Source of the DNA: Merdimmobilis hominis | Lineage (GTDB): Bacteria > Bacillota > Clostridia > Oscillospirales > Ruminococcaceae | Assembly: GCF_900104615.1 (NCBI RefSeq) | Contig: NZ_LT629939.1 | Coordinates: 1,576,298-1,640,297, forward strand | Reading direction: 5' to 3' | Length of the DNA stretch: 64,000 nucleotides | Shown: piece by piece, positions 3,127 through 23,532 of the stretch | Numbering within the stretch: position 1 is the stretch's first letter | How the letters are laid out: each line of letters starts with the position of its first letter | The notes under the pieces: generated by a model | Told to the model about the DNA's origin: nothing | Seen by the model: the letters and a program-made list of their open reading frames with translations, nothing else | Databases searched by the model: none | Program-made: the position numbers and the translations under genes

Positions 3127-3143
3127 AATCGACATTTACCTAG

Positions 3144-3181
3144 AAAGAAGGGCCTCCCCAGCTAGGGGGAGGCCCTTCTTT
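3144..3181. terminator. bidirectional intrinsic terminator
   Basis: AGAAGGGCCTCCCC pairs with GGGGAGGCCCTTCT around a short AGCTA loop, with A-runs on the left and T-runs on the right. It closes the B6 operon on the plus strand and the phage-type cluster on the minus strand. Confidence 0.85.
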
Positions 3182-3189
3182 CGTTGTTG

Positions 3190-3606
3190 TTACCGGAAGG
3201 CGATATAGTAGTAGGTCTGGCCGGAGCTGTTGAGGAAGAAGGCTTCGTAGTCGTACTCCCCAGCGCCGCTGCGCACCGAAATCCCCGTATCGGTGAGGGA
3301 TGCTCCCATGCTGCATCCTGCCTCCGAGAGGATGGCAAAGCCGATCTGCACCTCGGTGTACAAAGTGGGGTTCATCCGCAGCAGGGGGACGAAGTCGGTG
3401 TAGACCAAGCATATTTTGGGGCGGAACCCCAAGTCCACCGCCCGGGTGATCTTCCCATCCCCCACATAGCTGCCGCACACTGGGGTAAGCTGGTGAAACG
3501 CCGCATCCAGCTTGAGGTTGTCAGCGTTGAAGTCGTCCATTTTGGGCTTGTCGGCGCCGGACCAGCTGTTAAGGGAGAGATGGGCGGTTTTTTGGGAACT
3601 AGGCAT
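3190..3606 (-). CDS. last gene of phage-type cluster; tail fibre or tail-tip-like protein
   Basis: This 138-residue product is the most promoter-distal gene of the particle cluster. The ATG at 3606 has a strong AAGGAGGGACAGC ribosome site and lies 8 nt inside the end of the tail protein I gene. The N-terminal part (SLNSWSGADKPKMDDFNADN) resembles the start of PBSX-type tail fibre proteins, where a short N-terminal baseplate-docking region is followed by a receptor-binding part. The remainder is rich in beta-strand-like sequence and aromatic residues near the C-terminus (SGQTYYYIAF). The fibre assignment rests on position and the N-terminal resemblance. No chaperone or second fibre gene follows. 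Confidence 0.6.
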   Translation of the reverse strand: MPSSQKTAHLSLNSWSGADKPKMDDFNADNLKLDAAFHQLTPVCGSYVGDGKITRAVDLGFRPKICLVYTDFVPLLRMNPTLYTEVQIGFAILSEAGCSMGASLTDTGISVRSGAGEYDYEAFFLNSSGQTYYYIAFR

Positions 3607-4201
3607 GCTGTCCCTCCTTTCCAAGTTTGTGGCCGTTGATATCAAACCATTGCCAACTGAAATCGGCCGAATCCCAGTCGATGAAGGAGAGGCTGAACCC
3701 GTCGAACATCTCCCAAGTCAGAATGCCCACATCAAACTCCGCCGGGAGATGGGCAGGTAGCAGGGCCTGGATCTGCTTTTTCAGCTGCTCCCAGTTTTCA
3801 TACTCCAGAAGGGTGTCCACAAAGGAGATCGAAAGAGGTCCCTGTGGCGGGTTCTCGGTGATTCTCACCTTGACCCCGGCCCCGCTGACTGACTGTTCCA
3901 GCCGGGGGAGGGTGAAGTCCCCGGGCCGGATGGCCAAGCGGGCCAGCACCGTCTCCCGGCGGCTTTCCAGGGGGACTTCCAGCTGGGTGGGCAACCCCAG
4001 GAGGGACTCCCACCGGCTCAGCGCTTCCCCGGAACAGCTGATGACAAAGCTGTCCTCCGCCACCCGGCGCAAGACCTCTTCCACCAAGGCGAACCCCACC
4101 CCGTAGGCTTCCAGTTCCCGGCTGACAAAACTGTCGGGGGAGAGGTCATAAAGACCCATGGGGAGGAGCATCTCCCGCAGGGCCATAGCCGCCGCCCTCA
4201 T
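3599..4201 (-). CDS. phage tail protein I / XkdU-like (DUF2313)
   Basis: The 200-residue protein has the DUF2313 (YmfQ/XkdU) pattern: an early LLPMGLYDLSP segment, a central region with ESLLGLP and RRETVLARLA, and a C-terminal half ending in aromatic-rich repeats. In contractile-tail phages this protein caps the baseplate wedge next to the J protein and joins fibres to it. The start overlaps the baseplate J gene by 4 nt, and it sits between J and the fibre-like gene as in PBSX and Mu-type tails. Confidence 0.8.
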   Translation of the reverse strand: MRAAAMALREMLLPMGLYDLSPDSFVSRELEAYGVGFALVEEVLRRVAEDSFVISCSGEALSRWESLLGLPTQLEVPLESRRETVLARLAIRPGDFTLPRLEQSVSGAGVKVRITENPPQGPLSISFVDTLLEYENWEQLKKQIQALLPAHLPAEFDVGILTWEMFDGFSLSFIDWDSADFSWQWFDINGHKLGKEGQHA

Positions 4202-5259
4202 TGGGCGGCCCCCATTTGGGTCACGGTGATGGCCCCGGGCACCGCCACCTGCCGCGGCTCAATGGAGGTGTCCCCCGTAGGGGTGAGGAAGCGGCAGTTA
4301 GTGACAGAGGGCAGGCTATACACCCTGTGGATCATCCCGGCGAGGAGGGCGCTGCTGCCCACCCCCAGCCCCGTCAGGTATTGAGTGAGGGCTTCCTCCA
4401 CCTGGGTTTTAGCCTCTTCCAGTCCGGCAGAGGTTTCAATCTCCACCGAGACAGGGACCGCCACCGCCTGGGCCGGGGTGAGGGTGACGTCCACGCTGAT
4501 CTCTTTTTCAGCGGCGAACCGCTCCTTGAGGCGGTCCATCACCTCCCGGGAGGGAGCGGTCCCCCCAGCGGTGACTACCACCTCCACCGTGCCAGCGCCG
4601 GAAGGCCGGGGCAGAACTAGGGCAGAGGTGATCCCCTCTTCTTCCAAGGCAGCCTGGTGGTAGTAGGCGGCGTTGGCTCCGTTGGACACCTCCCGGTAAC
4701 TCTCCAGCAGCCGCCTGCGCAGGGATTCATCGTCCTCCGCGTCCACCCCGCCGGTGAAGGGGTCGGGGTTGCTCACCGAGGCGATACCGCTGGCCGGGGT
4801 GATCAGCACCGAGGCGGCGCCGGATGCCGCATTTCCCCCGCGTCCGGCAAGTTCTGCCTTTGCGGGGATGAGCACGCTTGTCTTCCCCTGGGGGAGAATC
4901 CCGTCCTCGGTGGTTTGGTACCGATAGGAGGGTTCTCCGTCGGTGGAGACAATCAGCCCCGCCGGAAGGGGGATGTCTTGGGGGGCCGGGGTGGCGCGGA
5001 CGAACTTCAGCACCCCTTGGGCACAGGTGGCCGCCTTGCGCTGCAAGCCCCGCTGGGCGGCATGGCGGTCCAAAAACTCACCGGAACTGGTCTCAGGAAA
5101 GGCCCGGGCCTCCAGTTCTGCGGCGTAGTTGTACAAAAGCTCCAGCTGGGCGGCCAGTACCGTCATCCGGATGCCCAGGTCGGAGGCGTCGTCCGCCTCC
5201 GCGCCGGTCAATTCCCGGAAGCGGTCGGTCATGGCCGTCCGAATTTCCGTTTGGGTCAT
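4198..5259 (-). CDS. baseplate J-like protein (gp47/XkdT family)
   Basis: The 353-residue product matches the baseplate J family. It begins with a helical N-terminus, then has the FLDRHAAQRGLQRKAAT segment, a beta-rich middle (IPLPAGLIVSTDGE) and the typical DDESLRRRLLESYRE motif followed by NGANAAYYHQAALE. It is the main structural wedge component of contractile baseplates and works with the DUF2634/gp25-like and tail I proteins encoded either side. Length is close to XkdT. The reading frame is intact. Confidence 0.9.
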   Translation of the reverse strand: MTQTEIRTAMTDRFRELTGAEADDASDLGIRMTVLAAQLELLYNYAAELEARAFPETSSGEFLDRHAAQRGLQRKAATCAQGVLKFVRATPAPQDIPLPAGLIVSTDGEPSYRYQTTEDGILPQGKTSVLIPAKAELAGRGGNAASGAASVLITPASGIASVSNPDPFTGGVDAEDDESLRRRLLESYREVSNGANAAYYHQAALEEEGITSALVLPRPSGAGTVEVVVTAGGTAPSREVMDRLKERFAAEKEISVDVTLTPAQAVAVPVSVEIETSAGLEEAKTQVEEALTQYLTGLGVGSSALLAGMIHRVYSLPSVTNCRFLTPTGDTSIEPRQVAVPGAITVTQMGAAQ

Positions 5260-5260
5260 G

Positions 5261-5611
5261 TTATAAATTCACCTCCAACAGGGTGGATGCCTCGCCCAAA
5301 GCCAGCTCCAGGGAAAGTTCGATCCGATCTTCTTCCGGGTCATAGCGGCAGGTGATCTCTCCCGCTTTTGCCCCGGCCATAGGGGCGAGGGCATCCATTA
5401 CATACCCCTGGGCTGCTCGGTTCATCTGGGCGGCGGGACCCCTCTTGAGACGGTACAGTTCACTGCCCAGCTTAGGGTTGGGGGCAAAGCCCCCTTTGCG
5501 GCAGATGAGTCGAATCATCGCCCGCTGAGCTAGTTCCGCCTTCCCATCCACCGTCTGGGGCAGCCCCCGGCTGTCCAAGAGAAAATCCCCGTTGTGCAAA
5601 AGTGTGTCCAT
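5261..5611 (-). CDS. baseplate wedge protein, DUF2634/gp25-like (XkdS position)
   Basis: The 116-residue product starts at ATG 5611, whose first base overlaps the previous stop (TAATG). The early NGDFLLDSRGLPQTVDG and the central CRKGGFAPNPKLGSELY fit the DUF2634/lysozyme-like gp25 family, which bridges the tube to the baseplate wedges. Position between a GpV-like spike gene and baseplate J is the conserved place for it. Confidence 0.75.
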   Translation of the reverse strand: MDTLLHNGDFLLDSRGLPQTVDGKAELAQRAMIRLICRKGGFAPNPKLGSELYRLKRGPAAQMNRAAQGYVMDALAPMAGAKAGEITCRYDPEEDRIELSLELALGEASTLLEVNL

Positions 5612-5952
5612 TAGGTATCCTCCTTTTGAGGGGGGACCACTGTCCCGTCGGGTTGGATGGCCAGCCCATTGATTACCACATCCCCGGTGTTTTTCAGGTG
5701 GATATAGGCCCCGCCGCCGCTTTCCAGGATGAGCTCCCCCGGATTCAGCCCTTGGGTGGAAGCTGCGGTGCCCAGCAGGGCGTAGCCGCCCCCAAAGGGG
5801 ATGAGGAAGCCCTGTTCCCCCTCCTTGGGGAAGCAGCGTAGGCCGCTGGGGCAAAAGAGGGGGAGGGTGTCGCAGCAGTCGGCAGCTGCGGTGATCTTAC
5901 CTTCCGCCGAGGCGGAGATCCTCCCGGTGCAGGGGTCCAATTGGTTTGTCAT
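5611..5952 (-). CDS. baseplate assembly/spike-like protein (GpV / DUF2577 position)
   Basis: The product is about 113 residues. It has a short N-terminus, a Gly-rich central region (LIPFGGGYALLG) and a beta-strand-like tail (GGGAYIHLKNTGDVVINGLAIQP) typical of the end of a GpV/gp45-type OB-plus-helix spike. The ATG at 5952 has AAAGGA 9 nt upstream and is preferred. An alternative ATG at 5961 overlaps the hub stop as ATGA. It is much shorter than P2 GpV and closer to XkdR of PBSX, which occupies the same place. Confidence 0.6.
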   Translation of the reverse strand: MTNQLDPCTGRISASAEGKITAAADCCDTLPLFCPSGLRCFPKEGEQGFLIPFGGGYALLGTAASTQGLNPGELILESGGGAYIHLKNTGDVVINGLAIQPDGTVVPPQKEDT

Positions 5953-5957
5953 GGTTG

Positions 5958-6890
5958 TCATTCCTTTCGTAGATACAGCCGGGTAAAGGCCCCGCTGGCG
6001 GAGAATTCCCACCGGATCTCCACCGGGTAATATCCCATCTCCGAGCCAATGGAGTCGATGAGGTCGAACCGGTCGGCCAGGGAGAGGGGAAGAAGGTCGG
6101 GCAGCAGCGCCTCCGCCTGCCGGTAACGGTTCCAGGCGTCCATGAGCAGGCGGTCCGCCCCGGCCTGGGGGTTGTGCTGGTATTCATCGGGGGGGATCCA
6201 GTACCGTTTGCGCCGCACCCCGATCTCCTGGGCTTTTTCGCTGGAGACCGCGGAGGAGTAGTAGCCCTCCTCCCCCCGGATGCAAATTTTGGAGAGGACC
6301 CGGCTGCGCTCCCGCCGGAAGGTCAGCTTTTGGTAGGCTAAGCCCCCCTCCCCAATGGTGTACCGCCGCCCCCCGCTGGGCCGCTGGGGTTCAATGACTC
6401 CCTGGGGGGTCAGGTAGGGCCGCACCCCTAGAGCTCCCTCGCAAAACCCGCAGAAGGCCTCCCACTCGCTGGCCCCCTTGGACACCCGGTAAGAGGGGAG
6501 CCGCAGCTCCCCAAACCCGGCGATCGGGAAGCCGTAAGGGGCAATATACCGCTGGTAGACATCCTGGAGCCGGGGGGAGTCAAACCGCTGGGGAAGGGCT
6601 TGGTTGTCCAGCAGCAGCGCCCCGTCCGACCGGGCAAAGAGGGAGAGCAGTTCCCCCTTTGGGGAAGAGACCCGCTCCTCCTCATCCACCTCCCCGATGA
6701 AGAGGATATCCCCTGGCAGCTGGGCTTTCACTTTACAAAGGGGCGGCAGGTCCTGGGGTAGGGGAAGGGTCAGCTCCAGCCCGTCCGCCGGGGAGTCCAC
6801 CGCCCGGCTCAGTTGGAGGGAGACCGGCTGGGGCAGCGGGCAGGCCGTCCCGGTCTGGCTGTACCCGGTCAGCTGGATCAAATTGCTCAT
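5958..6890 (-). CDS. baseplate hub protein (gp27/XkdQ-like)
   Basis: The 310-residue product has the split-barrel layout of hub proteins. An N-terminal beta domain contains LQLSRAVDSPADGLELTLP, then a cofactor-like stretch with GDILFIGEVDEEE, then a second domain with RERSRVLSKICIRG and YYPVEIRWEF near the end. In contractile tails the hub trimer links tube to spike. The ATG at 6890 has AAAGGA 11 nt upstream; a GTG at 6899 would be too near it. Family membership is judged on layout and synteny. Confidence 0.7.
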   Translation of the reverse strand: MSNLIQLTGYSQTGTACPLPQPVSLQLSRAVDSPADGLELTLPLPQDLPPLCKVKAQLPGDILFIGEVDEEERVSSPKGELLSLFARSDGALLLDNQALPQRFDSPRLQDVYQRYIAPYGFPIAGFGELRLPSYRVSKGASEWEAFCGFCEGALGVRPYLTPQGVIEPQRPSGGRRYTIGEGGLAYQKLTFRRERSRVLSKICIRGEEGYYSSAVSSEKAQEIGVRRKRYWIPPDEYQHNPQAGADRLLMDAWNRYRQAEALLPDLLPLSLADRFDLIDSIGSEMGYYPVEIRWEFSASGAFTRLYLRKE

Positions 6891-6906
6891 TGTGGCCACC
6901 GTCCTT

Positions 6907-7266
6907 TCACTGCCCTGCCTCCTCCAAAAACACCGCCGTGTAGGCGATGACCCGCCCGTCCCCGTCGGCGGTGTAGGTCAGCCGTTCAAAAAGGGCAAAC
7001 AGCGCCTCGCCGGTGGGGAGGAATAAAGTCTTGACCTCCCCGCTTCCCGCCGCTTGTGCCAGGGAAGCAAGGGCTTTCCCTGTTTTCTGTGGGCTGTCGG
7101 AAAACAGTTCCCCTTTGCAGGTGATCCGCCGGCATTGGGGCCCCAGGGGCTGGATGCGTCCCCCCAGCCGGGGAAGGAATAGTTCTGCCGCCTTCTGGGC
7201 AGTCTCCACCTGGATGGTGTGGGGGTTGTGGGGGAAGAGGTAGTCCCCGAATTGCATGCGATCCAT
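6907..7266 (-). CDS. tail/baseplate protein at the XkdP position, reduced
   Basis: The 119-residue product begins MDRMQFGDYLFPHNPHTIQV; the GDYxFPHNP and VETAQK segments resemble tail proteins encoded before the hub. In PBSX the protein in this place carries a LysM domain and is longer (over 200 residues). Here no LysM repeat is visible. GGGAGGG lies upstream of the ATG, which overlaps the preceding stop as TGATG. Confidence 0.5.
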   Translation of the reverse strand: MDRMQFGDYLFPHNPHTIQVETAQKAAELFLPRLGGRIQPLGPQCRRITCKGELFSDSPQKTGKALASLAQAAGSGEVKTLFLPTGEALFALFERLTYTADGDGRVIAYTAVFLEEAGQ

Positions 7267-7547
7267 CAAAAATCCCTCCCAAAGGGGAAGCGCAGGGCTT
7301 CCCGTTCTTGCAGTTTGGCCATCCGGTGAAGGAGGTTGTCCTCATCCTCCCAAAGGGGGGAGGCAGGGAAGGCCTCCATCTCCGCCGGTTTCCAATCGGC
7401 AACGGGTTCCCCCTCTTGGGGGAGGTTGGGCATCTGTGCCACCGCGGGGGGATCTGGCATCACCGCCGCCGGAAGGTTCTCCCGGTGGGGCGGGGTCAGC
7501 CCGGCGGCCTCTTTGTTTCGGGCGAGGGCCCGTTCCAATCCAGTCAT
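7266..7547 (-). CDS. 93-residue protein in the tape-measure position, unknown
   Basis: This small, Pro/Glu-rich, probably partly disordered protein begins MTGLERALARNKEAAG. It ends with a predicted amphipathic helix (EDEDNLLHRMAKLQEREALRF). It sits exactly where contractile phages encode the tape-measure protein, after the tail chaperone and before the pre-hub and hub genes. A strong GGGAGGTGGGAAG site precedes its ATG. It could be a second chaperone product, a remnant, or a miniature tape measure. No family is recognised. Confidence 0.5.
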   Translation of the reverse strand: MTGLERALARNKEAAGLTPPHRENLPAAVMPDPPAVAQMPNLPQEGEPVADWKPAEMEAFPASPLWEDEDNLLHRMAKLQEREALRFPFGRDF

Positions 7548-7843
7548 CTTCCCACCTCCCTGTCAAAGGATTCGTTGACGCCCCACTCCCCGCCCTCCCG
7601 CAGGAGCTGGGCATACTGGGCCAGCTCCTCCAGGGAGAAACGCTCCAGCACCTGGGCGGGGTGGGTCAGCTGAGGCTCTCCCCGCCGCAGGGAGAGGAAG
7701 ACCGCCGCGCAGTTGTAAGCCACAGCCAGGGCGCCTAGGTCGTCGTCCATCTGGGCGAATAGCTGGGGGAGCACCTGGGCGGCCACCCGGCGCAATTTGA
7801 GGGCGTCGCCGGCGGTCAGGGGGGCGAAGCTGGGCCCGCTCAT
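7544..7843 (-). CDS. tail assembly chaperone-like protein (XkdN position)
   Basis: The 99-residue product begins MSGPSFAPLTAGDALKL. It is mainly helical with SLEELAQYAQLL near the C-terminus, and it directly follows the tail tube with an ATGA overlap, the usual position of the tail chaperone. In relatives a programmed frameshift extends this protein. Here the next gene overlaps by 4 nt, so a frameshifted fusion of the two is conceivable, but no slippery heptamer was identified. Confidence 0.5.
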   Translation of the reverse strand: MSGPSFAPLTAGDALKLRRVAAQVLPQLFAQMDDDLGALAVAYNCAAVFLSLRRGEPQLTHPAQVLERFSLEELAQYAQLLREGGEWGVNESFDREVGR

Positions 7844-8223
7844 CGCAGCTCCATCCGCTTGGCAGCGGCGACGGTGACTGATTCCACCATCACATCCCCC
7901 AAGGCGGCCGTCTCGGTGATGCCGGCCCACTCGCAGCCGGAGTAGATGATTTTCCGGTCGGGTTTGACCACTACCACGTTGAAGCCGGAGAGGTCGAAGA
8001 AGCCGATGCCATCGTCCAACCCGCCGGTCAGGCACACCCGGGAGAGCTCCAGAATGTGTTTTACCCGCCCCCCTACCGTGCCCACCGGTTCGCTGGAACC
8101 AAAGGCTTCAATGGTGCGGCTTTCCCGGGTGGACCGGGCCTTATAGCTCTGGACTACGGCCAGCTTTTTGCCGTTGATTTCAATGTAAATATCCTTGCTT
8201 GTCGGCAGAGAACCAATTGCCAT
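7840..8223 (-). CDS. phage tail tube protein (XkdM-like)
   Basis: The 127-residue product shows the tube-protein pattern, with an early DIYIEINGKKLAVVQSYKA strand pair followed by STRESRTIEAFGSSEP and a C-terminal GDVMVESVTVAAAKRM. It would stack as the inner tube inside the sheath. It follows the sheath gene by 13 bp. It is slightly shorter than PBSX XkdM but complete. Confidence 0.85.
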   Translation of the reverse strand: MAIGSLPTSKDIYIEINGKKLAVVQSYKARSTRESRTIEAFGSSEPVGTVGGRVKHILELSRVCLTGGLDDGIGFFDLSGFNVVVVKPDRKIIYSGCEWAGITETAALGDVMVESVTVAAAKRMELR

Positions 8224-8236
8224 ACCTGTGCCTCCT

Positions 8237-9268
8237 TTACACCTGGATGCTGGCGGAGATCAAAATCTGGTTGGCGGCGTGGGCCACGGCAAAGGCCAGC
8301 TCTACCACCAGTACCGCCGGGTCGTCCGGGTGGACATACACCCGGGGCGGCTCATAGCTTTCGATAATCTCCCCATCCAGCAGCTGACCCAGTTCCACTG
8401 TCACCTGGGAGGCGATGCTCTCCCGGGTCTGGGTGGTGTTTTTCATCCCGGTGAGCCGGGATTTGAGGGCGCCCCGCACCGTTTCCATCACGTGGTCAAT
8501 AATCAGTATGGTGTTGACCGGCAGGAAGCTCAAATCCGTCTTGCCGCCGGTCTTGGTGCGGGTGGTCACCGCCCGGATGATCTCCACCCCGCCCGGCTGG
8601 GTCTCCAAGGGGGTGACCCCAGCGCCCAGCAGGGTTTCCACCTCATCCTGTCCCAGTTCCCGGGAGAGGCCCTCCGGCAGCGGGATTTCCCGTCCGGAGA
8701 ACCCGGTGGAGGGGTCGCTTTCACAGAGGATTTCCCCGGCCACTGCCGCCGCGCCCAAAGGAGGGCATGCCGCACCGCCCAGGGAGGGGGCAGGGCAGAC
8801 GAGGACCATCCTCTCGCTGTTCAGGGCGGAGGCCAGGGAAGAGGCGGCGGCGCTGTCGTCCACCCCGCAGAAACCCAACCGCTCCCGGCTTCCTTCGCTG
8901 GCCCGCTGGCAGCTCTCCTGCAAGGCGTCGAGGATGTCCTCCTCGGCCTTATCGCAGAGGATGCAGCCCACCTCGGCCACCGGCTCCAAGGCGGCAAAGG
9001 CGGCGGCGTACCCCTCCGCTGTATCGGTAGCTGCCGGGGAGAGGTAGACCGCGGCCACCCCCCGCCCAAACAGGAGGGAACAGGCGGCTAATGCCCAGCC
9101 TTCCAGCAGGGCGGCGGCCTCGCTGTAGCGGGAAAGGCGGGTCACCCCCTCCACCTCGGGAAAAACGCCTACCAGGGCAGCAGCCCGTTCGCTGACCGGC
9201 CGGGCGTACAGGCTGGTCACCGCATATTGGGAGTACACCCCCGGCCGTTTGGTAGCAATGGGGTTCAT
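8237..9268 (-). CDS. phage tail sheath protein, short form
   Basis: The 343-residue product begins MNPIATKRPGVYSQYAVTS, the sheath-type N-terminus. It contains LVGVFPEVEGVTRLSRYSE and ends with ARG-like sheath core features (KSRLTGMKNTTQTRESIASQ, VHPDDPAVLVVELAFAV). Sheath proteins contract to drive the tube. At 343 residues it is much shorter than XkdK-type sheaths (around 460), consistent with loss of surface domains while keeping the core interlocking strands. It shows that this cluster encodes a contractile rather than flexible tail. Confidence 0.85.
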   Translation of the reverse strand: MNPIATKRPGVYSQYAVTSLYARPVSERAAALVGVFPEVEGVTRLSRYSEAAALLEGWALAACSLLFGRGVAAVYLSPAATDTAEGYAAAFAALEPVAEVGCILCDKAEEDILDALQESCQRASEGSRERLGFCGVDDSAAASSLASALNSERMVLVCPAPSLGGAACPPLGAAAVAGEILCESDPSTGFSGREIPLPEGLSRELGQDEVETLLGAGVTPLETQPGGVEIIRAVTTRTKTGGKTDLSFLPVNTILIIDHVMETVRGALKSRLTGMKNTTQTRESIASQVTVELGQLLDGEIIESYEPPRVYVHPDDPAVLVVELAFAVAHAANQILISASIQV

Positions 9269-9753
9269 TCCATCACCCTCCTCAGTTCAATTTCATCAAT
9301 GGCGAGGGAGGTCTCCCCGGCGCTGATCAAGGCGTTCATCCGCCCCTTGGCGCACAAGAGGAAGCCCCCGATGTTTTTGTCGTAAGCTACAGGGCCACAG
9401 GTCAGCTCCTCCACCCCCAGGCTGTTGCGACGAAGGAGCAGAGCGTCGAGCAGCTCCTCGAACAGCCCTTGGCAGGCCCCACCCCCCAGGCGGACCGGGC
9501 AGGCCAGATCAAACCGCAGGGTGATTTGTACATACCGCCCCCGCAGGGTCTGGCTGCTGTCCTCCCCCAGATAGTCGTCCAGCCCTGCATCTTGAACTGC
9601 CATAGCGTCAAACCCCACGGCAATCCGGCTTTTTAGGAGGGGAGAGGGCTTGGGCGATGGAGGAAATTCCCCCATCACCGCCACCCCTTGGCCGGAAAAA
9701 TGGTCGGAGAGGTAGTCCACCAGCTGTTGTTTCAGCTCCTTCAAATCAGTCAT
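9265..9753 (-). CDS. neck / tail-terminator-like phage protein
   Basis: The 162-residue product lies between the head connector genes and the sheath gene. The helical N-terminus (TDLKELKQQLVDYLSDHF) followed by beta strands including GRYVQITLRFDLACPV is compatible with tail-terminator proteins. Its start overlaps the previous gene by 8 nt and its end overlaps the sheath start as ATGA. Function is inferred from order. Confidence 0.5.
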   Translation of the reverse strand: MTDLKELKQQLVDYLSDHFSGQGVAVMGEFPPSPKPSPLLKSRIAVGFDAMAVQDAGLDDYLGEDSSQTLRGRYVQITLRFDLACPVRLGGGACQGLFEELLDALLLRRNSLGVEELTCGPVAYDKNIGGFLLCAKGRMNALISAGETSLAIDEIELRRVME

Positions 9754-10078
9754 CCTGCTCCTCCTCCCGCGCCCGCTGGAGAACCGCCCACCGGTAGAGG
9801 GCCTTGCCTTTGCCGTAAAAGTTCTCCGCCTGCTTCACAAAATAATGTTCCTCCCCAAAGCGGATAAAGTCCCCCTGCTGGGGGTAGGGGAGGGCTGGCC
9901 CATAGTAGAGGGCATGGCCTTTTTCCAGCTGCCCCAAGGCGGAGTAATCCGCCTCCAAATACAGCTTGCTCCGGTCGTGGATGGGCTGCACCACCGCCTT
10001 TACCCGGTGCACCTCCCCTTGGTGTTCGATGGCCGTCTCCCACCCCAGGCGGGTGAGGATGGCCTCCACACCGGTCAC
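9746..10078 (-). CDS. head-closure/neck protein
   Basis: The 110-residue, beta-rich product begins MTGVEAILTRLGWETAIEHQ. It contains GDFIRFGEEHYFVKQAENFY, which resembles head-closure proteins (about 110 residues, one beta barrel) of siphovirus and myovirus necks. It lies in the connector block downstream of the capsid gene and overlaps both neighbours by a few bases. Confidence 0.55.
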   Translation of the reverse strand: MTGVEAILTRLGWETAIEHQGEVHRVKAVVQPIHDRSKLYLEADYSALGQLEKGHALYYGPALPYPQQGDFIRFGEEHYFVKQAENFYGKGKALYRWAVLQRAREEEQDD

Positions 10079-10443
10079 GGTTTCACCTCAAAAAGGACTT
10101 TGGGGGAGAAGTCCGCCAGGTCGGCAAGGGAGAGGATGGCGTCGTCCCGGATGGCTCCGGCTGCCCGCAGCAGGCCGTCCCCATCGCAGGAGACCGAAAG
10201 CTCCCCCGCCTTGAGGCTGTGGCACCCCACCGCCGCCTCTAAAAGGGCGTATTTGTAATAGGCGATAGCCGCCGCCCCCTGGGTGAGCCGTTCCCCCTGC
10301 TGGGAGGGGGAAATCCCCTCCCGCAGGTGGGCCAGCAGGTCGTTCCAGGCAGAGGCGCACAGCCCCCGCCACCGTTCTTTTTCCCCCTCGTCCAAACCGG
10401 CGAGGGAGAGGAATGCCGTCAATACGGCGTCAACTTCCGACAT
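10075..10443 (-). CDS. head-tail connector/adaptor protein
   Basis: The 122-residue product starts MSEVDAVLTAFLSLAGLDEG at the ATG at 10443, 12 bp after the capsid stop. The mostly helical sequence with AAAIAYYKYALLEAAVG near the middle fits the head-tail adaptor family (gp6/gp15-like), which docks under the portal. Assignment relies on size, helicity and position. Confidence 0.55.
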   Translation of the reverse strand: MSEVDAVLTAFLSLAGLDEGEKERWRGLCASAWNDLLAHLREGISPSQQGERLTQGAAAIAYYKYALLEAAVGCHSLKAGELSVSCDGDGLLRAAGAIRDDAILSLADLADFSPKVLFEVKP

Positions 10444-10454
10444 AGGCGCACCCC

Positions 10455-11453
10455 TTATGCAGTCAGGGTCAAGACCTTCACCGCGTCGGGGAAGATTTTG
10501 GCGAAGCCGCAGGTCTCGGTGATGGCCACCCGCTCCAGCTGGCAGTCGATCACCTTGTCGGAGTCCACGGTTACCCCGCCGCAGGAGACCATCTCCAAAG
10601 CGCAGTTTTTGTCCATGGCGATGACTGTTCCCGCAGGTACCGCGTCGGATTTGATCAGCACCGCGCCAAAAGGGGTGAGGGCCGCGTCCGGGCCGGTGAA
10701 GGCGGCGGCACAGCCGGGCAGGTTGCACTCTGGCAGGGAGAGGATTTTGCCCGCCATGTCGGGGGAAGCCAGCAGCAGGTTCATCTCATAGTCCTCAAAG
10801 CTTTGCCACAGCTTGAGAAGGTCGCTGTAGGCCAAGGTTCCGGAGGTGGCGCAGACGGTTTTCTCCGCCGCATCATCCCCAGTGCCGATGAGGGCGCTCA
10901 CCGCGTCTTTCAGCTTGCGCCGGGCGATGGAGTTGCCGATCTGCCGCAGGGTGACGGCGAACAGCTCCAGCCGCTGGAAGCGGATTGCCTCATAGCTGGC
11001 CGAGAGCATCCGGCCCCGCTTGTTGAGGGTCACCAGTTTATCCTTGAGGCGGATCTGGGTGGCGGGGATGGCGCCGCCCTCAGCGATGGCTTTGTCCTCA
11101 TCCTCGCTGGCGGTGGAGGAGATGGAGCGGTAATCGGGGGTGTTCACCACCGTTTTGGCCGCCAGGATTAGATCCAAGGGGGAGTTTTTCATCCCCTGCT
11201 CCACTGCTCGGGTGAGGTAAGCGGGGAAGAGGAGGGCGGACTGGGGGTCCTGGAAGAATTTTTCCACCCGGTCGCCCAAGGGGCCGCTTACTTTGATGTC
11301 GAACCGTTTCAGCTGGCGCTCCAGGGCGTCCAGGCCGCAGAGGTCGGTGCCCTCGTACCCGCGGGAGGGATCCAAGGCCTCCAGGCGGTTAAAAAAGCCC
11401 TCGCCTGTGTGGTACATGGATTTTTCCAGAACAACCGATTGATAATTGCCCAT
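10455..11453 (-). CDS. major capsid protein
   Basis: The 332-residue product begins MGNYQSVVLEKSMYHTGEGF. It contains LLFPAYLTRAVEQGMK, a GAIPATQIRLKDKLVTLNKRGR strand pair, and a C-terminal TCGFAKIFPDAVKVLTL. This fits an HK97-fold capsid protein of the PBSX/XkdG-like type without an obvious cleaved delta domain. It lies just after the protease gene, the canonical place. Confidence 0.75.
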   Translation of the reverse strand: MGNYQSVVLEKSMYHTGEGFFNRLEALDPSRGYEGTDLCGLDALERQLKRFDIKVSGPLGDRVEKFFQDPQSALLFPAYLTRAVEQGMKNSPLDLILAAKTVVNTPDYRSISSTASEDEDKAIAEGGAIPATQIRLKDKLVTLNKRGRMLSASYEAIRFQRLELFAVTLRQIGNSIARRKLKDAVSALIGTGDDAAEKTVCATSGTLAYSDLLKLWQSFEDYEMNLLLASPDMAGKILSLPECNLPGCAAAFTGPDAALTPFGAVLIKSDAVPAGTVIAMDKNCALEMVSCGGVTVDSDKVIDCQLERVAITETCGFAKIFPDAVKVLTLTA

Positions 11454-11466
11454 AAAAATAGCCTCC

Positions 11467-12405
11467 TTACAGTTTAAAATGGCGGTTGGATGTGGCTATG
11501 GTTCCCTCCGGGCGATAGAGCTGGGGCACCGGCAGGCCGGTGCCTTTTCCCAGCCCGGCCAGGAAGGATTGAAGTTCCCGGCAGGAGAGGGAAGCCGCCG
11601 CTTTTTGGGCCAGGGTCCCAGTCAGGGCCGGGTGCTGAAGCACCAGTGCCTTCTCCACCTCCCGACGCAGGGAGGAGAGGTACTCCTCCCCAGCCTGGGC
11701 AAGTGGCTCCAGCCGCTCCAGCTGGGTGAGAAGGGCTTTGGCCTCCCCGGATTTTAAAGTGACTTCCCCCAGCGCGAGCTTCTTCTTCAGCTCCCCAGGG
11801 GAGAGGGCGGTGCCGTAGGCTTTGGTTACCCCGGCTTCCCGCTGGGCGGGTACCGCCACAAAGGACCACTCATAGGCGTCGGTGGGCTCTTCCAGCAGGG
11901 TGCAGCACAGCTGGCCGCCGTACCGTTCCCCCGTTTTGTGTCCGCAGGAGCCGGCCGCTGCCCCGCAGATGGAACAGCTTTTTTTGGCCACTGTGCAGCC
12001 AATGCTCACCTCTTTTTTGATCCCCGCGTCAATCTCCAAAATCAGGTCGGCGTTTTTCTCGCATCGGGGCAGGTAACACAGGGCCCGCAGCTGGCAGAAG
12101 GGTTCCCCGCAGCTGGTTTCCCGGCTGGCGTCCTCCACTACCTGCGTGTAAAAGATCCGGGCGGTCTGCCCCGCACCCTGGGGATTGTGGTCGAAGATGC
12201 CGGTCTTGCCCAGCATCATGGGGGCAAGGGCCTCCAAGGCGGGGCGGGTAAACCGCTCCCCATCCCGGTCCACCTCGTTGTCGCAGAGGTTGACCGCAAA
12301 GACAAACACCTCATCGGGGGAGAGTTTCCGGCGGGAGAAGCGGTTGATGGCGGCGAGTTGTTTCTCCCCGGCCGCCGCTTCGGGGAATGGGTCGATTCTA
12401 TTCAT
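11467..12405 (-). CDS. prohead protease, possibly fused to scaffold
   Basis: The 312-residue product shows a U35-like protease region with FDHNPQG (candidate catalytic His), then EVSIGC (candidate Ser) and DAYEWSFVAVPAQREAG, a common ending of this domain. A Cys-rich insertion (CSICGAAAGSCGH) may bind metal. The remaining 110 residues are helical and charged, as expected for an attached scaffolding domain. It would process and shape the prohead. It overlaps the portal gene by 8 nt. Confidence 0.75.
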   Translation of the reverse strand: MNRIDPFPEAAAGEKQLAAINRFSRRKLSPDEVFVFAVNLCDNEVDRDGERFTRPALEALAPMMLGKTGIFDHNPQGAGQTARIFYTQVVEDASRETSCGEPFCQLRALCYLPRCEKNADLILEIDAGIKKEVSIGCTVAKKSCSICGAAAGSCGHKTGERYGGQLCCTLLEEPTDAYEWSFVAVPAQREAGVTKAYGTALSPGELKKKLALGEVTLKSGEAKALLTQLERLEPLAQAGEEYLSSLRREVEKALVLQHPALTGTLAQKAAASLSCRELQSFLAGLGKGTGLPVPQLYRPEGTIATSNRHFKL

Positions 12406-13660
12406 CCATAGCCTCCTTGTTTTCCCGCTCCAGCCGGTCGGCTTGAAGCTGGATCAGCCGGGTGTTGGCCAGCTCCACCTCGTCCTGCAGATTGATGCAG
12501 TCCCAGTCGATGGAGAAGGGCCGGTCCATCCCCTTTAGCAACAGATGGCTGCGGCAGACCTTCTCCACCACCGGGGTCAAGAGGGAGCGGTAATACTCCA
12601 GTTCACTGGTGAGGATGTCCGCTTGCTGGGCGCTCATCCGCTCGGTGGTGGACCAGTTGAGGCCCAATAAAAAGGGCGGGATCCCCAGTTTTGCCACCAT
12701 TTGTTCCAACATCTGGCGCACCGGCACCTGGGTGTCAATCATCTGGTTGTCCGCACCGATGACCTTGACATCCACGTCGCCCACTGCCACAAAGTCCCGG
12801 ATGGAGCCGCTTTTGCCCGAATTCATGGCGTTCTGCCACTCCTTGGCGATGGAGGCGGCGATTTCCTGGGAATAGGCCCGGTCCAGGCTCCCGGCGCCGG
12901 GCTTGTAGGTGACGGCGTAACGCAGGTTGGCAATCCGTTCAAAGTTGTTGCCGATGGAGCGGAAGATTTTTAACAGGATATCGCTGACAAAAGGCAGGCC
13001 CTTTAAAAGCGAATTCCCTCGTATTTCCCCGGGGTTGGGCCGCAGGGCGGAAAACAAGATCCACTGGGGTTCCCGCACCGGTACAAGACCCTCCTCCCCG
13101 GGGACGTAAAAGCACAGCTCCATAGGGGATTGGCCCGGTTTGACCGTCACCTGGCGGCAGGGGGCGTTGTACAGCCCCAGGACCCCTTCCTCCCCGGGGA
13201 GGATTTCCCCTACCGCCGAGCCATAGGTCAATAAGCTGTCCAGGTAGGAGGCCAAAAAGGGGGCGATGCCGGTCTGCCCGCCGGAGACTGGCACCTGGGA
13301 GAGAAACCGGCAAAGCTCCTCCCGGACGGCCTCCTCCTCACAGAGTACGGTAAACCCGCCAGTCAGCCGGACAATTTTGTCGATGGCCGCGTCGATGATG
13401 GGGACCGCTTCCCGCAGGCAGGCATACAGTTCCCCATCGCAGCCGCACAGAGGGGTGTAGTCCTCCAAGGGGCTGAATGGATGGGGGGAGCCCCGCCCGG
13501 TCTGCACCGAAAGGGCAGGCCTGCGGAATAAATTCGAAAAGCCCAAACAATCCTCCTCCTTTCTCATAATTGTTTTGCCCCCCAAGGGGGCGCGCTGTTG
13601 GTTGCCGTCCCCATCCGCCCCGCCGGCGGGCGAAAAAGGGATTTTTTGGGAACAGGTCAT
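12398..13660 (-). CDS. portal protein
   Basis: The product is up to 420 residues. The ring-forming portal core is visible in IDAAIDKIVRLTGGF, VTVKPGQSPMEL, PLLGL-like SLLKGLPFVSDI and KLGIPPFLLGLNWSTTERMS, the latter typical of PBSX/XkdE-type portals. The portal forms the DNA-translocation vertex where terminase docks. The ATG at 13660 overlaps the terminase stop as ATGA. A second in-frame ATG at 13567 (MRKEEDCLGF) would remove a low-complexity N-terminus of 31 residues and may be the real start. Confidence 0.85.
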   Translation of the reverse strand: MTCSQKIPFSPAGGADGDGNQQRAPLGGKTIMRKEEDCLGFSNLFRRPALSVQTGRGSPHPFSPLEDYTPLCGCDGELYACLREAVPIIDAAIDKIVRLTGGFTVLCEEEAVREELCRFLSQVPVSGGQTGIAPFLASYLDSLLTYGSAVGEILPGEEGVLGLYNAPCRQVTVKPGQSPMELCFYVPGEEGLVPVREPQWILFSALRPNPGEIRGNSLLKGLPFVSDILLKIFRSIGNNFERIANLRYAVTYKPGAGSLDRAYSQEIAASIAKEWQNAMNSGKSGSIRDFVAVGDVDVKVIGADNQMIDTQVPVRQMLEQMVAKLGIPPFLLGLNWSTTERMSAQQADILTSELEYYRSLLTPVVEKVCRSHLLLKGMDRPFSIDWDCINLQDEVELANTRLIQLQADRLERENKEAMDE

Positions 13661-14898
13661 CCCCGCTCCACACTCACGGCGAAGAACCCGGATTCCCCCT
13701 CCTGCATCGCCGCCATGGCGAAGTAGCGGATGTCATCCATGGCGTGGTCAAACTCCTTCACCGGCTTGTCCTGCCTCGCCCCTTCGTCCCACCGGTAGAG
13801 GGAAAACTCCCGGATGGTGTCGGCGCATTGGGGGGAGAAAAGTATTCTCCCTGCGAGAAGGGCTTCGCTCACCAGCTGGATCCCCTCCTTCACCCGGTTG
13901 TCAGCGGGTAAAACCCGGAACCGGCCGTGACGGCGGATGCAGGCTAGAAAACTGGCTGCCGAGGGGTCCACTACTACCTGCTCGATGGCCCGGTCCCCAG
14001 CCAGTTCTTCCAGGGCAGCATAAAGCTCCTCGTCGGTGCGGGTCAGGCCGTCCCGGCGGCTGTCCAGATACTGTTCCGCCAGCCGGTGCCACACCCCATC
14101 CCGCTCTCCCCACAGCCCCATGGAGCAGGGGTTTACGGTGCCGTAGTCGCAGGAGATCAGGTACCTCCGGTACTCCCCGTCCGGCTCCCGCAGGTGGCGG
14201 ACAGGGTCGAACATGGGGTAGACAAGTCCTTGGGGGGCGCACCATTCCCCCAGCACATACCGCCGGTAAAACCCTCCGGAGTAAAGGCCCTCATATCGCC
14301 GGCGCACCTGGTCGGAGAGCCCCGGATTGTCCTCCATGGTGAAGTGGAGGTAGAGGATGCCCTTCTCCTCGGCTTTCTGCACCCATTCCCGGTAGAACCA
14401 GTGGCCCGGGTGGTCGGGGTTGCAGCTAAACCAGAATTTGGCCCCCTCCACCGAGCAGCGGGCCAGGGCCTGCTCCACAAAGGAGCGGGGCATCAGCACC
14501 ACCTCATCCAGCAGCACCCCCGCCAGGGTGGCGCCTTGGATCAGGGCGGCGGAGCCCTCGTCCTTGCCTCCGAAGAGAAGAAACCGGTTCTGCTGGTTCC
14601 CCTGGCGGATGGTCACCAGGTTTTGGGAGGGCTGTTCCCGCACCTCCATCCCCAGCTCCCGCAGATAGGGCAGCAGGGGGAAGAGGAGATTTCGCCGCAG
14701 CCCCCGGATCGTCCGGGCACAGATGGCGAAGTCCTCCCCTGCAAAAGAGGCCATGGCCCACAGCACAAAGGAGAGGGTGAGGCAGAAGGTCTTGCCGGAG
14801 CGGATGGCCCCGTCGCAGAGGATGCCGCTGTATCCCTCCTCCAGCCACCAGGTCAGCACCCGCAGCTGTTTGGGGGAAAAGCGGTCAATCCTTCCCAT
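13657..14898 (-). CDS. terminase large subunit
   Basis: The 413-residue ATPase-nuclease packages DNA into proheads. Walker A GAIRSGKT lies near the N-terminus, with Walker B-like VLLDE followed by the coupling region. The RNaseH-like nuclease acidic residues appear in ISCDYG, VVVDPS and FDHAMDD. All three catalytic acidic positions are kept, so packaging could be functional. It overlaps the small subunit gene by 14 nt. Confidence 0.93.
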   Translation of the reverse strand: MGRIDRFSPKQLRVLTWWLEEGYSGILCDGAIRSGKTFCLTLSFVLWAMASFAGEDFAICARTIRGLRRNLLFPLLPYLRELGMEVREQPSQNLVTIRQGNQQNRFLLFGGKDEGSAALIQGATLAGVLLDEVVLMPRSFVEQALARCSVEGAKFWFSCNPDHPGHWFYREWVQKAEEKGILYLHFTMEDNPGLSDQVRRRYEGLYSGGFYRRYVLGEWCAPQGLVYPMFDPVRHLREPDGEYRRYLISCDYGTVNPCSMGLWGERDGVWHRLAEQYLDSRRDGLTRTDEELYAALEELAGDRAIEQVVVDPSAASFLACIRRHGRFRVLPADNRVKEGIQLVSEALLAGRILFSPQCADTIREFSLYRWDEGARQDKPVKEFDHAMDDIRYFAMAAMQEGESGFFAVSVERG

Positions 14899-15358
14899 GG
14901 GCCTCCAGGGCCTTGGCGCTCATGAGGAGAGCCTGGTAGATGGGACTCTCCCCGGCGGGGGTTTCCTCTTTGGCGATCTCCCACAGCAGTTCTAGGGCCC
15001 GCAGCCGGTCGGCAAACTTGACCTCCACCCCGTTTTTGCCGGATTTGATCTCCGACACGCCGAACAGGTCGGGGAGATCCGCCCCTTCTGCTGTCACACC
15101 GCCTTGGGCCGAGGAGAAGATAAGCCGTAGGAGGCCGTTTTTGACAATCTCTGGAAGCAGGTCTTTGTGGGGCGCCCGCCGGATCTCCTCCCCCACCGCT
15201 TGGCGGATCTCCTCCCGGCAGAGAAGCTCGCCGGCGATGGCTGCTGCCTTTTTGCCTGGATATCCCGCCTCCAGGGCAGCTTCCCGGGGCAGCAGCAGGC
15301 GGGCGTAAGCCCCGCAGAACAACCGCTCCTTAGCGGTCAAAGGTGTTTCCAAACGCAT
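14885..15358 (-). CDS. terminase small subunit
   Basis: The 157-residue product begins MRLETPLTAKERLFCGAYAR, has a helix-turn-helix-like segment (NREAALEAGYPGKKAAAIAG region) and a charged C-terminus, as in the Terminase_2 family. It selects DNA for packaging and activates the large subunit. It is the first gene of the particle cluster. An intrinsic terminator-like hairpin lies about 60 bp upstream on the same strand. Confidence 0.8.
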   Translation of the reverse strand: MRLETPLTAKERLFCGAYARLLLPREAALEAGYPGKKAAAIAGELLCREEIRQAVGEEIRRAPHKDLLPEIVKNGLLRLIFSSAQGGVTAEGADLPDLFGVSEIKSGKNGVEVKFADRLRALELLWEIAKEETPAGESPIYQALLMSAKALEAHGKD

Positions 15359-15410
15359 CCCTCACAATCCATTGGTCTTTCGAGAAGGGGGAAGGGCCCT
15401 TCATCTTTCC

Positions 15411-15450
15411 CGCCAAAAGAAAAAAGAAGTTGCAAAAAAACTGCAACTTC
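15411..15450 (-). terminator. intrinsic terminator/attenuator just upstream of the particle cluster
   Basis: On the minus strand GAAGTTGCA and TGCAACTTC form a 9-bp perfect stem around a T-rich loop, immediately followed by TTTTTTCTTTT. It lies 53 bp before the small terminase start, so transcripts arriving from upstream would stop before the cluster. Confidence 0.7.
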
Positions 15451-15534
15451 TCAAAAACATTTGAAAAACTGGCGGATTGGGGGATAGGACGCTTGCGTTG
15501 TCCGCCGGAGGGGGAAATCCCCTGGTGTCGCCCC

Positions 15535-21478: not shown

Positions 21479-21555
<77 letters not shown>

Positions 21556-21741: not shown

Positions 21742-23454
21742 TTAAAAGCTGTCCATCAAACACTTCTTTCGCTGTTCCGCACCATGGGAATAGCGCAAAG
21801 TTGTTGATTTATCGGCATGGCCTACGATTTCAGAAATGGATGGCAGATCTTCCGGATGCCTCTGAACCATTTCTGTGATAAAACTATGCCGTGTAGAATG
21901 AACAGTGACATTCTTTACGCCGCAGCTTTCCAAAAAACGCTTGAAGTGCGTATCAAATGTCTTGGGGTCATAGGGCCTAAGCAAAGGAGTTACCAATAGA
22001 AAGTTCTCCGTACCATGATTTGGGCAGTGGTCAACGCTGTAACCTAAAAGCCGCTCCTGGTAGGCGATCAATCTTCTGACGCACTCCTTCACCTGGGACC
22101 CGACCGGGAATTCCCGGATTGACGAGTCTGTTTTTGGCGGGCCTAAATAAAGGCCCGTTTTGTTTTTCTTCTTTGCCCAAGTGTCTACTCGCTGATAGTC
22201 CGGCGCCTGCTGTGCGTTGGGATGTTCCATTCGAGTAAGGGATTTTTCAATCCGGAAAAAACCAATGTTAGATCCGATTTGCCCAAGCTGCAAACCCAGC
22301 AGCTCCCCTTTCCGCATCCCTGTGCGCAGAAGGATCACAACGGCCCAGCCGATGGGGGAGTCAGATTCCATCCCTCTCTCCACCAGTAAGTTTTCCTGCT
22401 CTTCGGTGATAAGAGGGATTGCTTTCGCCCGGTGAAACTTCAGTTCCACTTCTCTGGCCGGATTGTGATCTATGAGTTTTTTGGGATTTACCGCATAGTT
22501 CAGTGCCTTTTTGAGCATATTCCGCATGTCGGTAAGAGTTTTATGGGATAAACCGCCCTCTTTTCCATCGGCCCGGCCGGAACAGGCTTTCAAATCAAAG
22601 AAACCCTGCAGCATTTCGGTTGTCACTTCCTGAAGCCGGCGTTCACCGAAATGGGGAAGGAAATGGGCCTGGATATACATGCGGTACTTCTTTTTTGTGC
22701 TGGGCCGGAGGCTGGTTTTCCCGGCATGGTCCAGCCAGGACATCAAATAACCGCAAAAAGTATCCTTGTTCTTTCCCACAAACGTACCATTGTCGATGGC
22801 GACTTGGATAGCCCGGAGTTTCTTCCGGGCCTCTTTTTCTGTGTGCGCATAAACGCTTTCTGTGCGGCCTTTCAAACAATAACGGCCTTCATAAAAGCCT
22901 TCCTTCCTCAACCGCACCCCATCGCGGAAGGGCCCATGCTTTTCGCCTTTTGGCAGCGTGTGCGAACCGTGGAACCTTCCAGCTGGGAATCCGGCTGCTT
23001 TCAGGATCTCATCCAGGCTTTCTTCCGAATTGGTAAATGCGCCCTGCTGCACGGCTTGTTCAAAAGCGCGGTATTTTGCCTTCGCCTCCTCTTCAGAGAC
23101 GGCGCCGATCCGATACTTCTTTCCCTGGACGCGCATCGCAACGCGCCAGGAATTAGGGGAATTGCGGTTGATGTTATAAGAACTGATCGCCGCCGGCAGC
23201 TCTCTCAGAACCCCGGCCGGGTAGCCGTTTTCCTTCAAGTAAAGATCCAAAAGGTCTTTGGAGCCGTCGAACGACTCTTTTTGGGCAAATTGAAGCGCAA
23301 GATTCAACTTCTTCGTTGCCTCATCACGGGATATTGCTTGCATAAACAGGCGCTTTCCGTGATGAGAAAAGCTGGCTTGCCAAACGCCATTGGCGTATCG
23401 GCGAATATTCCCTGTCCCCTTTTTACGGGGTAATTCTCCCGTAGATCCTTGCAT
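21742..23454 (-). CDS. tyrosine integrase of the mobile element
   Basis: The 570-residue tyrosine recombinase catalyses insertion and excision at the adjacent tRNA. The catalytic set is RTGMRKGE (Arg I), HSTRHSF (HxxRH), GHADK and the nucleophile in LRYSHG. The core-binding domain (KYRMYIQAHFLPHFGERRL) lies before it. The N-terminal third holds three related arm-type units, each a NGVWQAS- or GFYEGRY-like strand set followed by a helix (DEATKKLNLA, EEEAKAKYRA, EKEARKKLRA). The ATG at 23454 has GGGAGGAACAGTT upstream; a start at 23508 lacks this. The 3' end faces the tRNA. Confidence 0.93.
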   Translation of the reverse strand: MQGSTGELPRKKGTGNIRRYANGVWQASFSHHGKRLFMQAISRDEATKKLNLALQFAQKESFDGSKDLLDLYLKENGYPAGVLRELPAAISSYNINRNSPNSWRVAMRVQGKKYRIGAVSEEEAKAKYRAFEQAVQQGAFTNSEESLDEILKAAGFPAGRFHGSHTLPKGEKHGPFRDGVRLRKEGFYEGRYCLKGRTESVYAHTEKEARKKLRAIQVAIDNGTFVGKNKDTFCGYLMSWLDHAGKTSLRPSTKKKYRMYIQAHFLPHFGERRLQEVTTEMLQGFFDLKACSGRADGKEGGLSHKTLTDMRNMLKKALNYAVNPKKLIDHNPAREVELKFHRAKAIPLITEEQENLLVERGMESDSPIGWAVVILLRTGMRKGELLGLQLGQIGSNIGFFRIEKSLTRMEHPNAQQAPDYQRVDTWAKKKNKTGLYLGPPKTDSSIREFPVGSQVKECVRRLIAYQERLLGYSVDHCPNHGTENFLLVTPLLRPYDPKTFDTHFKRFLESCGVKNVTVHSTRHSFITEMVQRHPEDLPSISEIVGHADKSTTLRYSHGAEQRKKCLMDSF

Positions 23455-23532
23455 AACTGTTCCTCCCTTCTGATCTCGGGACAAACAAAAACTCGCCTGG
23501 CAAATCATTCAGCTGTAAAACGGGTGTGAATA

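Follow-up and report, generated by a model that had tools for sequence, protein, structure and literature searches.

Within a 64,000-nucleotide stretch of the genome of Merdimmobilis hominis (contig NZ_LT629939.1, positions 1,576,298 to 1,640,297, hereafter the window), a 12.2-kb cluster of phage-like structural genes occupies positions 3190-15358 of the minus strand. Its 19 overlapping open reading frames (ORFs) are all open and follow a PBSX-like order, i.e., terS, terL, portal, protease, capsid, neck, sheath, tube and baseplate. A preliminary description of this DNA had proposed sixteen overlapping minus-strand genes, apparently intact, for packaging, head, neck, contractile tail and baseplate. 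The overlap, the strand and the open frames were borne out, and family matches together with gene position support all of these functions, but the number of genes was too low. The locus is probably a domesticated, mostly vertically inherited element resembling gene transfer agents (GTAs) and derived from a PBSX-type contractile phage.

All genes of the cluster (g1 to g19) lie on the minus strand. The packaging genes encode a full-length small terminase subunit (TerS, g19, 14885-15358, PF03592) and a large subunit (TerL, g18, 13657-14898, PF03237), which scored above the NCBIfam cut-off of TIGR01547, "PBSX family phage terminase large subunit" (155 bits, cut-off 105). The portal (g17, 12398-13660, later start possible at 13582) fell under the cut-off of PF04860 and matched a PHROG portal family with 440 bits. 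The product of g16 (11467-12405) is probably a prohead protease, with conserved H73, S134 and a CxxC...CxH motif. This motif is a possible zinc knuckle, each position of which was kept in 141/141 sequences of g16 and its relatives. The major capsid protein (g15, 10455-11453) belongs to PF25209; its gene stands ahead of the protease gene in five relatives (L026, L029, L033, L075, L121), unlike the usual order. Two putative head-tail connectors, assigned by position (g14, 10075-10491, frame open to 10728; g13, 9746-10078), and a tail terminator (g12, 9265-9753), whose fold was seen in a fused relative with a homologous domain, complete the neck.

The tail sheath (g11, 8237-9268) was recognised by PHROG (2e-22), both Pfam sheath models remaining under cut-off, and the next ORF (g10, 7840-8223) is the likely tail tube, given a match to a PHROG of unknown function and its place after the sheath. 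A normal tape measure was not found in the window. Its slot holds an ORF in the position of XkdN (g9, 7544-7915, frame open to 8035, 123-163 aa) and an ORF of 93 aa (g8, 7266-7547), for which the g8 profile found no relative. In the 32 sheath-bearing loci, window included, the largest ORF of this slot had 229 aa. Thus, a sheath is present, but the slot ORFs are too short for the full-length tape measure of a PBSX-type contractile tail. Further along lie a protein in the position of GpU/XkdP with a weak match (g7, 6907-7269; a match of g7 to an endolysin was insignificant, E 0.18), the baseplate hub found by family search (g6, 5958-6899), a small baseplate or spike-like protein placed by position (g5, 5611-6012), a gp46-like baseplate protein with a weak GP46 match (g4, 5261-5617), Baseplate_J (g3, 4198-5259, PF04865), a gp48-like baseplate protein (g2, 3599-4201, PF10076) and a fibre-like protein (g1, 3190-3645, alternative start 3606). 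Several small ORFs of the cluster had no family match. Where the cluster and the ECF-S transporter gene converge, a perfect 17-bp hairpin (3143-3182) probably serves as a terminator.

With PBSX of Bacillus subtilis, the window cluster shares a PBSX-family TerL, a Terminase_2 TerS and a gene order which we take to be terS-terL-portal-protease-capsid-connectors-sheath-tube-...-baseplate in both. It differs from PBSX by the lack of a normal tape measure, by the absence of any matched control or lysis family in the window cluster, by the frequent loss of sheath and baseplate in relatives, and by single-copy inheritance across at least three bacterial families.

This reduction of the tail was followed across 139 loci, of which 95 were counted as complete clusters, TerL and portal being required for this, and 44 were not. 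A scan of named genomes gave at least 573 loci, of which the best 80 were considered, and viral loci were the best 80 of 365; the duplicates L050, L051 and L247 were excluded from the integrase, tail-class and flank surveys. TerS, TerL, portal, protease, capsid and g14 were present in 95/95 complete clusters (TerL and portal by selection). The tail genes, in contrast, were present in grades, with classes set by profiles at E<=1e-4, at which diverged genes may be missed. A sheath was found in 16/95 complete clusters and was undetected in 79/95. Tube and Baseplate_J without sheath occurred in 19, Baseplate_J with neither detectable tube nor sheath in 17, and a hub without Baseplate_J in 15, one of which (L107) keeps the tube. 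Eleven clusters had a fused terminator-fibre gene and no hub, and 17 had none of sheath, Baseplate_J, hub and fusion (L260 and L267 of these retain the tube). On an rpoB tree, on which five tips were assigned by eye or not assigned, the sheath is found in family f14 (6/7) and in f1, and is missing in 11/11 f24 genomes, one f1 clade, and genomes G012 and G228; it was lost at least four times, provided that it was never regained. Baseplate_J was not found anywhere in the genome in 14 genomes with hub-only or head-only clusters (0/14; controls 4/4 positive). Taken together, the sequences show that tail genes are dispensable and that head and packaging genes are kept in at least three families.

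A gene fusion joining g12 to the C-terminal portion of g1 occurs in 14 loci; 11 of these loci are complete and belong to the smallest clusters. The structural model of the fusion (mean predicted local distance difference test score, pLDDT, 76.9) has an N-terminal domain resembling tail terminators: T5 p142 (Z 11.9, root mean square deviation (rmsd) 2.6, 133 residues), RcGTA 6tba (Z 11.4, rmsd 3.1, 122 residues) and lambda gpU (Z 11.1, rmsd 3.1, 123 residues). The model of g1 (pLDDT 91.6) had no PDB match at E<=0.001, and the fibre label was given because of position, weak PHROG hits and the fusion; g1 was recognised in just 6/16 sheath clusters.

The distribution of the family was examined with the portal, which was found in 19/61 genomes (own genome included) and, in a broader survey, in 101 of the order's 395 genomes with completeness >=90%, this order being taken as Oscillospirales from the names of named-genome matches. 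Each of the 101 carries one copy, except for a marginal second fragment in G343, and all but two belong to families f1, f14 and f24, with one each in f7 and f15. Genus g88 carries one copy in 9/9 genomes, other genera being patchy. A survey of 393 genomes of the class gave 9 matches, all within the order. The best 80 of the named-genome loci include Anaerotruncus, Faecalispora jeddahensis, Clostridium sporosphaeroides and Anaeromassilibacillus; L106 and L108, with an identical portal core, were counted as two species. Two culturable type strains have the locus, Anaerotruncus colihominis DSM 17241 (L067) with a sheath and Clostridium sporosphaeroides DSM 1294 (L093) without one.

A head-gene tree (portal, TerL, capsid and protease of 30 genera, TerL missing in one) shared 16/27 splits with the rpoB tree; the 300 label shuffles averaged 0.29 shared splits and never exceeded 3. 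The Mantel correlation between head genes and rpoB was 0.60 for the whole set and 0.66, 0.92 and 0.96 for individual families, values that 0/2000 permutations reached in each case. At least two same-side flanking genes were common with another locus in 59/139 loci, and 40 locus pairs had flanking genes in common on both sides. The PGK-TIM-iPGM-DegV-methylase side of the window is partly common to the Anaerotruncus loci L048, L057, L063 and L067, and to L245, which the window site matches on both sides. Single copy, congruence with rpoB and flanks thus show that the cluster is mostly inherited vertically, with some conflicts. GTAs likewise pass vertically as part of the cellular genome (PMC9662315).

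The ratio of nonsynonymous to synonymous substitution rates (dN/dS), kept when dS was 0.1-1.2, had a median of 0.12 and a 90th percentile of 0.23 over 115 gene comparisons in 10 close pairs. Also the small clusters (L092/L094, L061/L068, L059/L084) gave 0.03-0.21 where defined. The particle genes of the relatives are therefore under purifying selection, an outcome for which the preliminary description had suggested dN/dS as a check. In TerL, G30, R33, S34, G35 and K36 were kept in 133/133 sequences and T37 in 130/133, D131 and E132 in 134/134, and D251, D311, D384 and D388 in 136/136; we take these positions to be Walker/catalytic and nuclease residues, and the earlier remark that the ATPase and nuclease residues of TerL are kept thus extends to the family. 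The portal was split in 0/142 loci. In-frame stops appeared in 12/101 portal alignments, and the seven examined of these 12 (L243, L263-L268) have frames of 354-400 aa, their stops being taken as alignments overrunning the gene end.

As had been described, the cluster sits between housekeeping genes. One flank carries TrkH, a PdxK-like kinase and an ECF-S transporter, and the other SpoU methylase, DegV, PGK, TIM and iPGM. Its guanine-cytosine (GC) content is 0.61-0.65, that of adjoining DNA 0.57-0.59. Family searches inside the window cluster matched no integrase, repressor, replication or lysis family, as previously stated, with the qualification that a tyrosine integrase (21742-23508) lies 6.4 kb away, beyond the housekeeping genes. 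This integrase adjoins tRNA-Met (21479-21555) at the edge of a lower-GC region, and no second copy of the tRNA-Met 3′ end was found within the window. It was assigned to a separate element; housekeeping genes that are syntenic elsewhere stand between it and the cluster.

Linked integrase or lysis genes in relatives had been named as an outcome that would contradict a GTA-like nature. When 139 genome loci and 1.17 Mb of flank were searched with a tyrosine-integrase profile derived from the same genomes' own integrases (profiles of serine recombinases were not included), the only match was the separate element of the window. Among the listed ones of 241 integrase matches, which do not include the window's own, none lay <=30 kb from a cluster. 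In 85 viral-collection loci there were two integrase matches, one being the same window element (in L127) and the other in L161. Of 185 flanking ORFs selected by script, 101 were scanned with Pfam; the 25 listed of 149 families included no recombinase or lysis family and were mostly housekeeping, transport, secreted and helix-turn-helix families. Apart from L161, the family searches of the window cluster, and those of relatives for tyrosine integrases and in the listed Pfam families, showed no genes for autonomous replication or integration. A membrane-anchored ORF of ~266 aa lies just upstream of terS on the minus strand in L022 (17361-18221) and L028 (17302-18111); that of L022 is a LytR_cpsA_psr protein. 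Other parts of genome G000 contain a second Baseplate_J and a TerL from a different family (C3:2052876 and C3:2333143); such other phage elements might supply lysis.

A leader is located immediately before terS (15390-15455, minus strand), with a hairpin, then a T tract, and a purine-rich end that abuts the gene, and it is common to relatives. Terminator-like hairpins occurred <=300 nt upstream of terS in 55/130 loci vs 65/540 random windows. In the 21 leaders of covariance model R1, chosen for a stem >=9 bp, a choice that favours pairing counts, 42 cells were altered on both pair sides (shuffled mean 12.5, 0/500) and 9/13 pairs were altered on both sides (8/500 shuffles). Over 2.69 Mb at E<=1, the model gave 52 sense-strand matches, 18 opposite-strand matches being excluded from the count. 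Of the 52, 43 lay 250-1000 nt before terL, with 23 outside the training set, and four more abut terS at different spacing, three of them new. The remaining five are two extra copies in L238 and single matches in L120, in L091 at 493 nt ahead of terS, and in L251, where terS was not found. The leader was present in 47/128 loci with terS, and had no match in the contractile loci of f14. With a sequence-only model (R2), leaders absent from the training set appeared at this same position, among them those of L047, L079 and L026, whose stems are changed yet complementary. Rfam gave sub-threshold matches only at the leader, and a pattern scan of viral contigs returned six stretches, one at terS of the window's family. 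In L238, three copies (1459, 3750, 12216) lie within 11 kb, in a repeat-rich region, and may mark co-regulated or dispersed sites. We favour an RNA terminator, because of the changing stem and the one-sided T tract, over a palindromic operator, which is a possible alternative. In CcGTA, expression involves terminators and anti-termination (PMC11150451).

The TerS ORF was <135 aa and started at profile position >=53, and so lacks the N-terminal profile region, in 37/135 loci, where individual frameshifts or wrong starts are possible. The full-length TerS of the window may have low packaging specificity. In FpGTA, a GTA published in 2026 in Faecalibacterium, TerS is reported to be without an obvious DNA-binding domain (PMC12946183).

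FpGTA particles are described as ~40 nm in size, without visible tails and with ~9 kb of DNA, and GTA-like packaging was also reported in other Ruminococcaceae, Oscillospiraceae and Christensenellaceae, a strong operon candidate being given for one of the four metagenome-assembled genomes searched (PMC12946183). The window cluster is like FpGTA in being a small GTA-like locus of the same bacterial family with terS, terL, portal and capsid and no phage replication genes. Homology was examined in seven g65 genomes, g65 being presumably Faecalibacterium from a probe and 16S. PF03237 TerL was found in 7/7 of them (two with a second), and the best was taken as presumptive FpGTA I (L309-L315); L309, the only one read gene by gene, has a P22-like portal. 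Window-family profiles on these seven loci matched TerL only, and weakly, with no match of portal, capsid or protease at E<=1; the capsids share just the broad Pfam family PF25209. The TerL alignment, used with no positive control, found nothing in the seven genomes even at E<=10, where the local profile had matched weakly. Published FpGTA coordinates for CP030777 did not fit G630. Because portal, capsid and protease were unmatched in the presumptive loci and L309 has a P22-like portal, an FpGTA homologue was rejected; assuming that g65 is Faecalibacterium, the window family is, on these sequence comparisons, a separate lineage. In a literature search, preprints being outside its scope, this family was not found described. 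For faecal virome records L042-L046, no link to a DNase-treated study was established; PMC8361208 fits, and gives no accessions.

With RcGTA (Rhodogtaviriformidae) and CcGTA, the family shares vertical inheritance and a short structural cluster, and the RcGTA terminator fold matches the N-domain model of the fused relative. It differs from them in its PBSX-type contractile ancestry and its phylum. No regulator common with RcGTA or CcGTA was identified, no search having been aimed at one.

The strongest argument for a GTA-like element is which part evolution retained. The cluster derives from a tailed phage and has head and packaging genes, and it is mostly vertical and under purifying selection in relatives. 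The preliminary description had proposed selection for particle making as in GTAs, which vertical inheritance, purifying selection and the TerL positions support; its emphasis on contractility does not hold for the family, 79 of the 95 complete clusters having no detectable sheath. Its suggested check on conservation of the locus and its flanks was likewise answered in part, by single copy, tree congruence and the 59 loci with common flanks.

Several observations weigh against this reading. No lysis gene was found in the cluster. Presence is patchy (101/395 genomes), chromosomal sites differ between clades, and 80/139 loci are without two flanking genes matching any other locus. Head-gene and rpoB trees conflict at 11/27 splits, some with high support on both sides, which indicates that some exchange occurred, and the Mantel correlation is just 0.66 in the window's own family. 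In L161, an integrase-like ORF (7398-8483) lies downstream of a related portal (1/85 viral-collection loci). The nearest relatives of the window are too distant for dS, the close-pair dN/dS covering relatives; one value in close pairs exceeded 0.5 (0.75, g13, L271/L273), and single genes in more distant pairs, with dS near-saturated, reached 0.64. TerL is split in 3/137 loci (L027, L091, L265) and the capsid is broken in L027. Also, the window TerS is full length with its N-terminal region kept.

Tailocins typically retain the tail and lose the head. The family shows the opposite pattern, with head and packaging kept and the tail repeatedly lost, and the GTA reading is favoured over a tailocin because of it. 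A PBSX-like killing particle, in which the contractile tail would kill competitors and packaged DNA would be incidental, is thus rather unlikely, in spite of the PBSX-family TerL, the presumed PBSX order, and a sheath and baseplate that are intact in the window and a sheath that is found in 16 of the 95 complete clusters. The retained TerL active sites and the 14 genomes lacking any Baseplate_J speak against it as well. In favour of a killing particle, PBSX itself packs 13.4-kb host fragments and is described as not injecting them (PMC12946183).

A phage satellite of the capsid-forming type (phage-inducible chromosomal island, PICI), or a defective prophage still moved by helper functions, would agree with sites that differ among clades, with the integrase downstream in L161, and with small clusters of packaging, head and neck genes without a tail, as we presume capsid-forming PICIs to be. 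We consider it quite improbable, as the family is single copy, mostly vertical and congruent with rpoB, and is not an integrase-linked island as far as tyrosine types are concerned; docking of a helper tail would also be hampered by a fibre-like domain attached to the tail terminator. That the cluster is a decaying, functionless prophage remnant is barely credible: tail genes lost in grades and broken genes in three loci would fit, but purifying selection acts on the small clusters too, and single copies persist across families. An ordinary prophage was rejected on copy number, tree congruence and flanks.

If the locus is GTA-like, transcription would in some cells read past the terminator-like leader into terS, and a small capsid would form. 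TerL would load host DNA into it with scant preference for sequence, and neck proteins would close it. In the window version, a very short contractile tail, a baseplate and a fibre would then be added, and release would depend on lysis genes encoded at other sites of the genome. Elsewhere in the family the tail has shrunk to tube and baseplate, to a baseplate without detectable tube, to the hub alone, to a terminator with a fibre-like domain, or to none.

Formally classified GTAs comprise two alphaproteobacterial types and one of spirochetes (PMC9662315), and GTA lineages with known genes are few, FpGTA having been added in one gut genus (PMC12946183). More tentatively, we propose that the window family could be a second, ancient GTA lineage in gut Firmicutes, founded when a contractile phage was domesticated before three families parted. 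The sheath would then have been lost at least four times, leaving tailless capsids with DNA, in some of which a fibre-like domain sits on the terminator ring, under a conserved RNA terminator leader, and these could be the agents of the GTA-like packaging reported in Onthomonas, CAG-115 or Ruminococcus callidus. If true, this would place an extra GTA lineage in roughly one in four of the genomes sampled from a major gut order, provide candidate genes for packaging events that lack a named operon, and offer a naturally graded set of particles, contractile at one end and tailless at the other, showing which parts are needed for DNA carriage. The locus is a good candidate for a bacterial gene-sharing machine derived from former virus genes.

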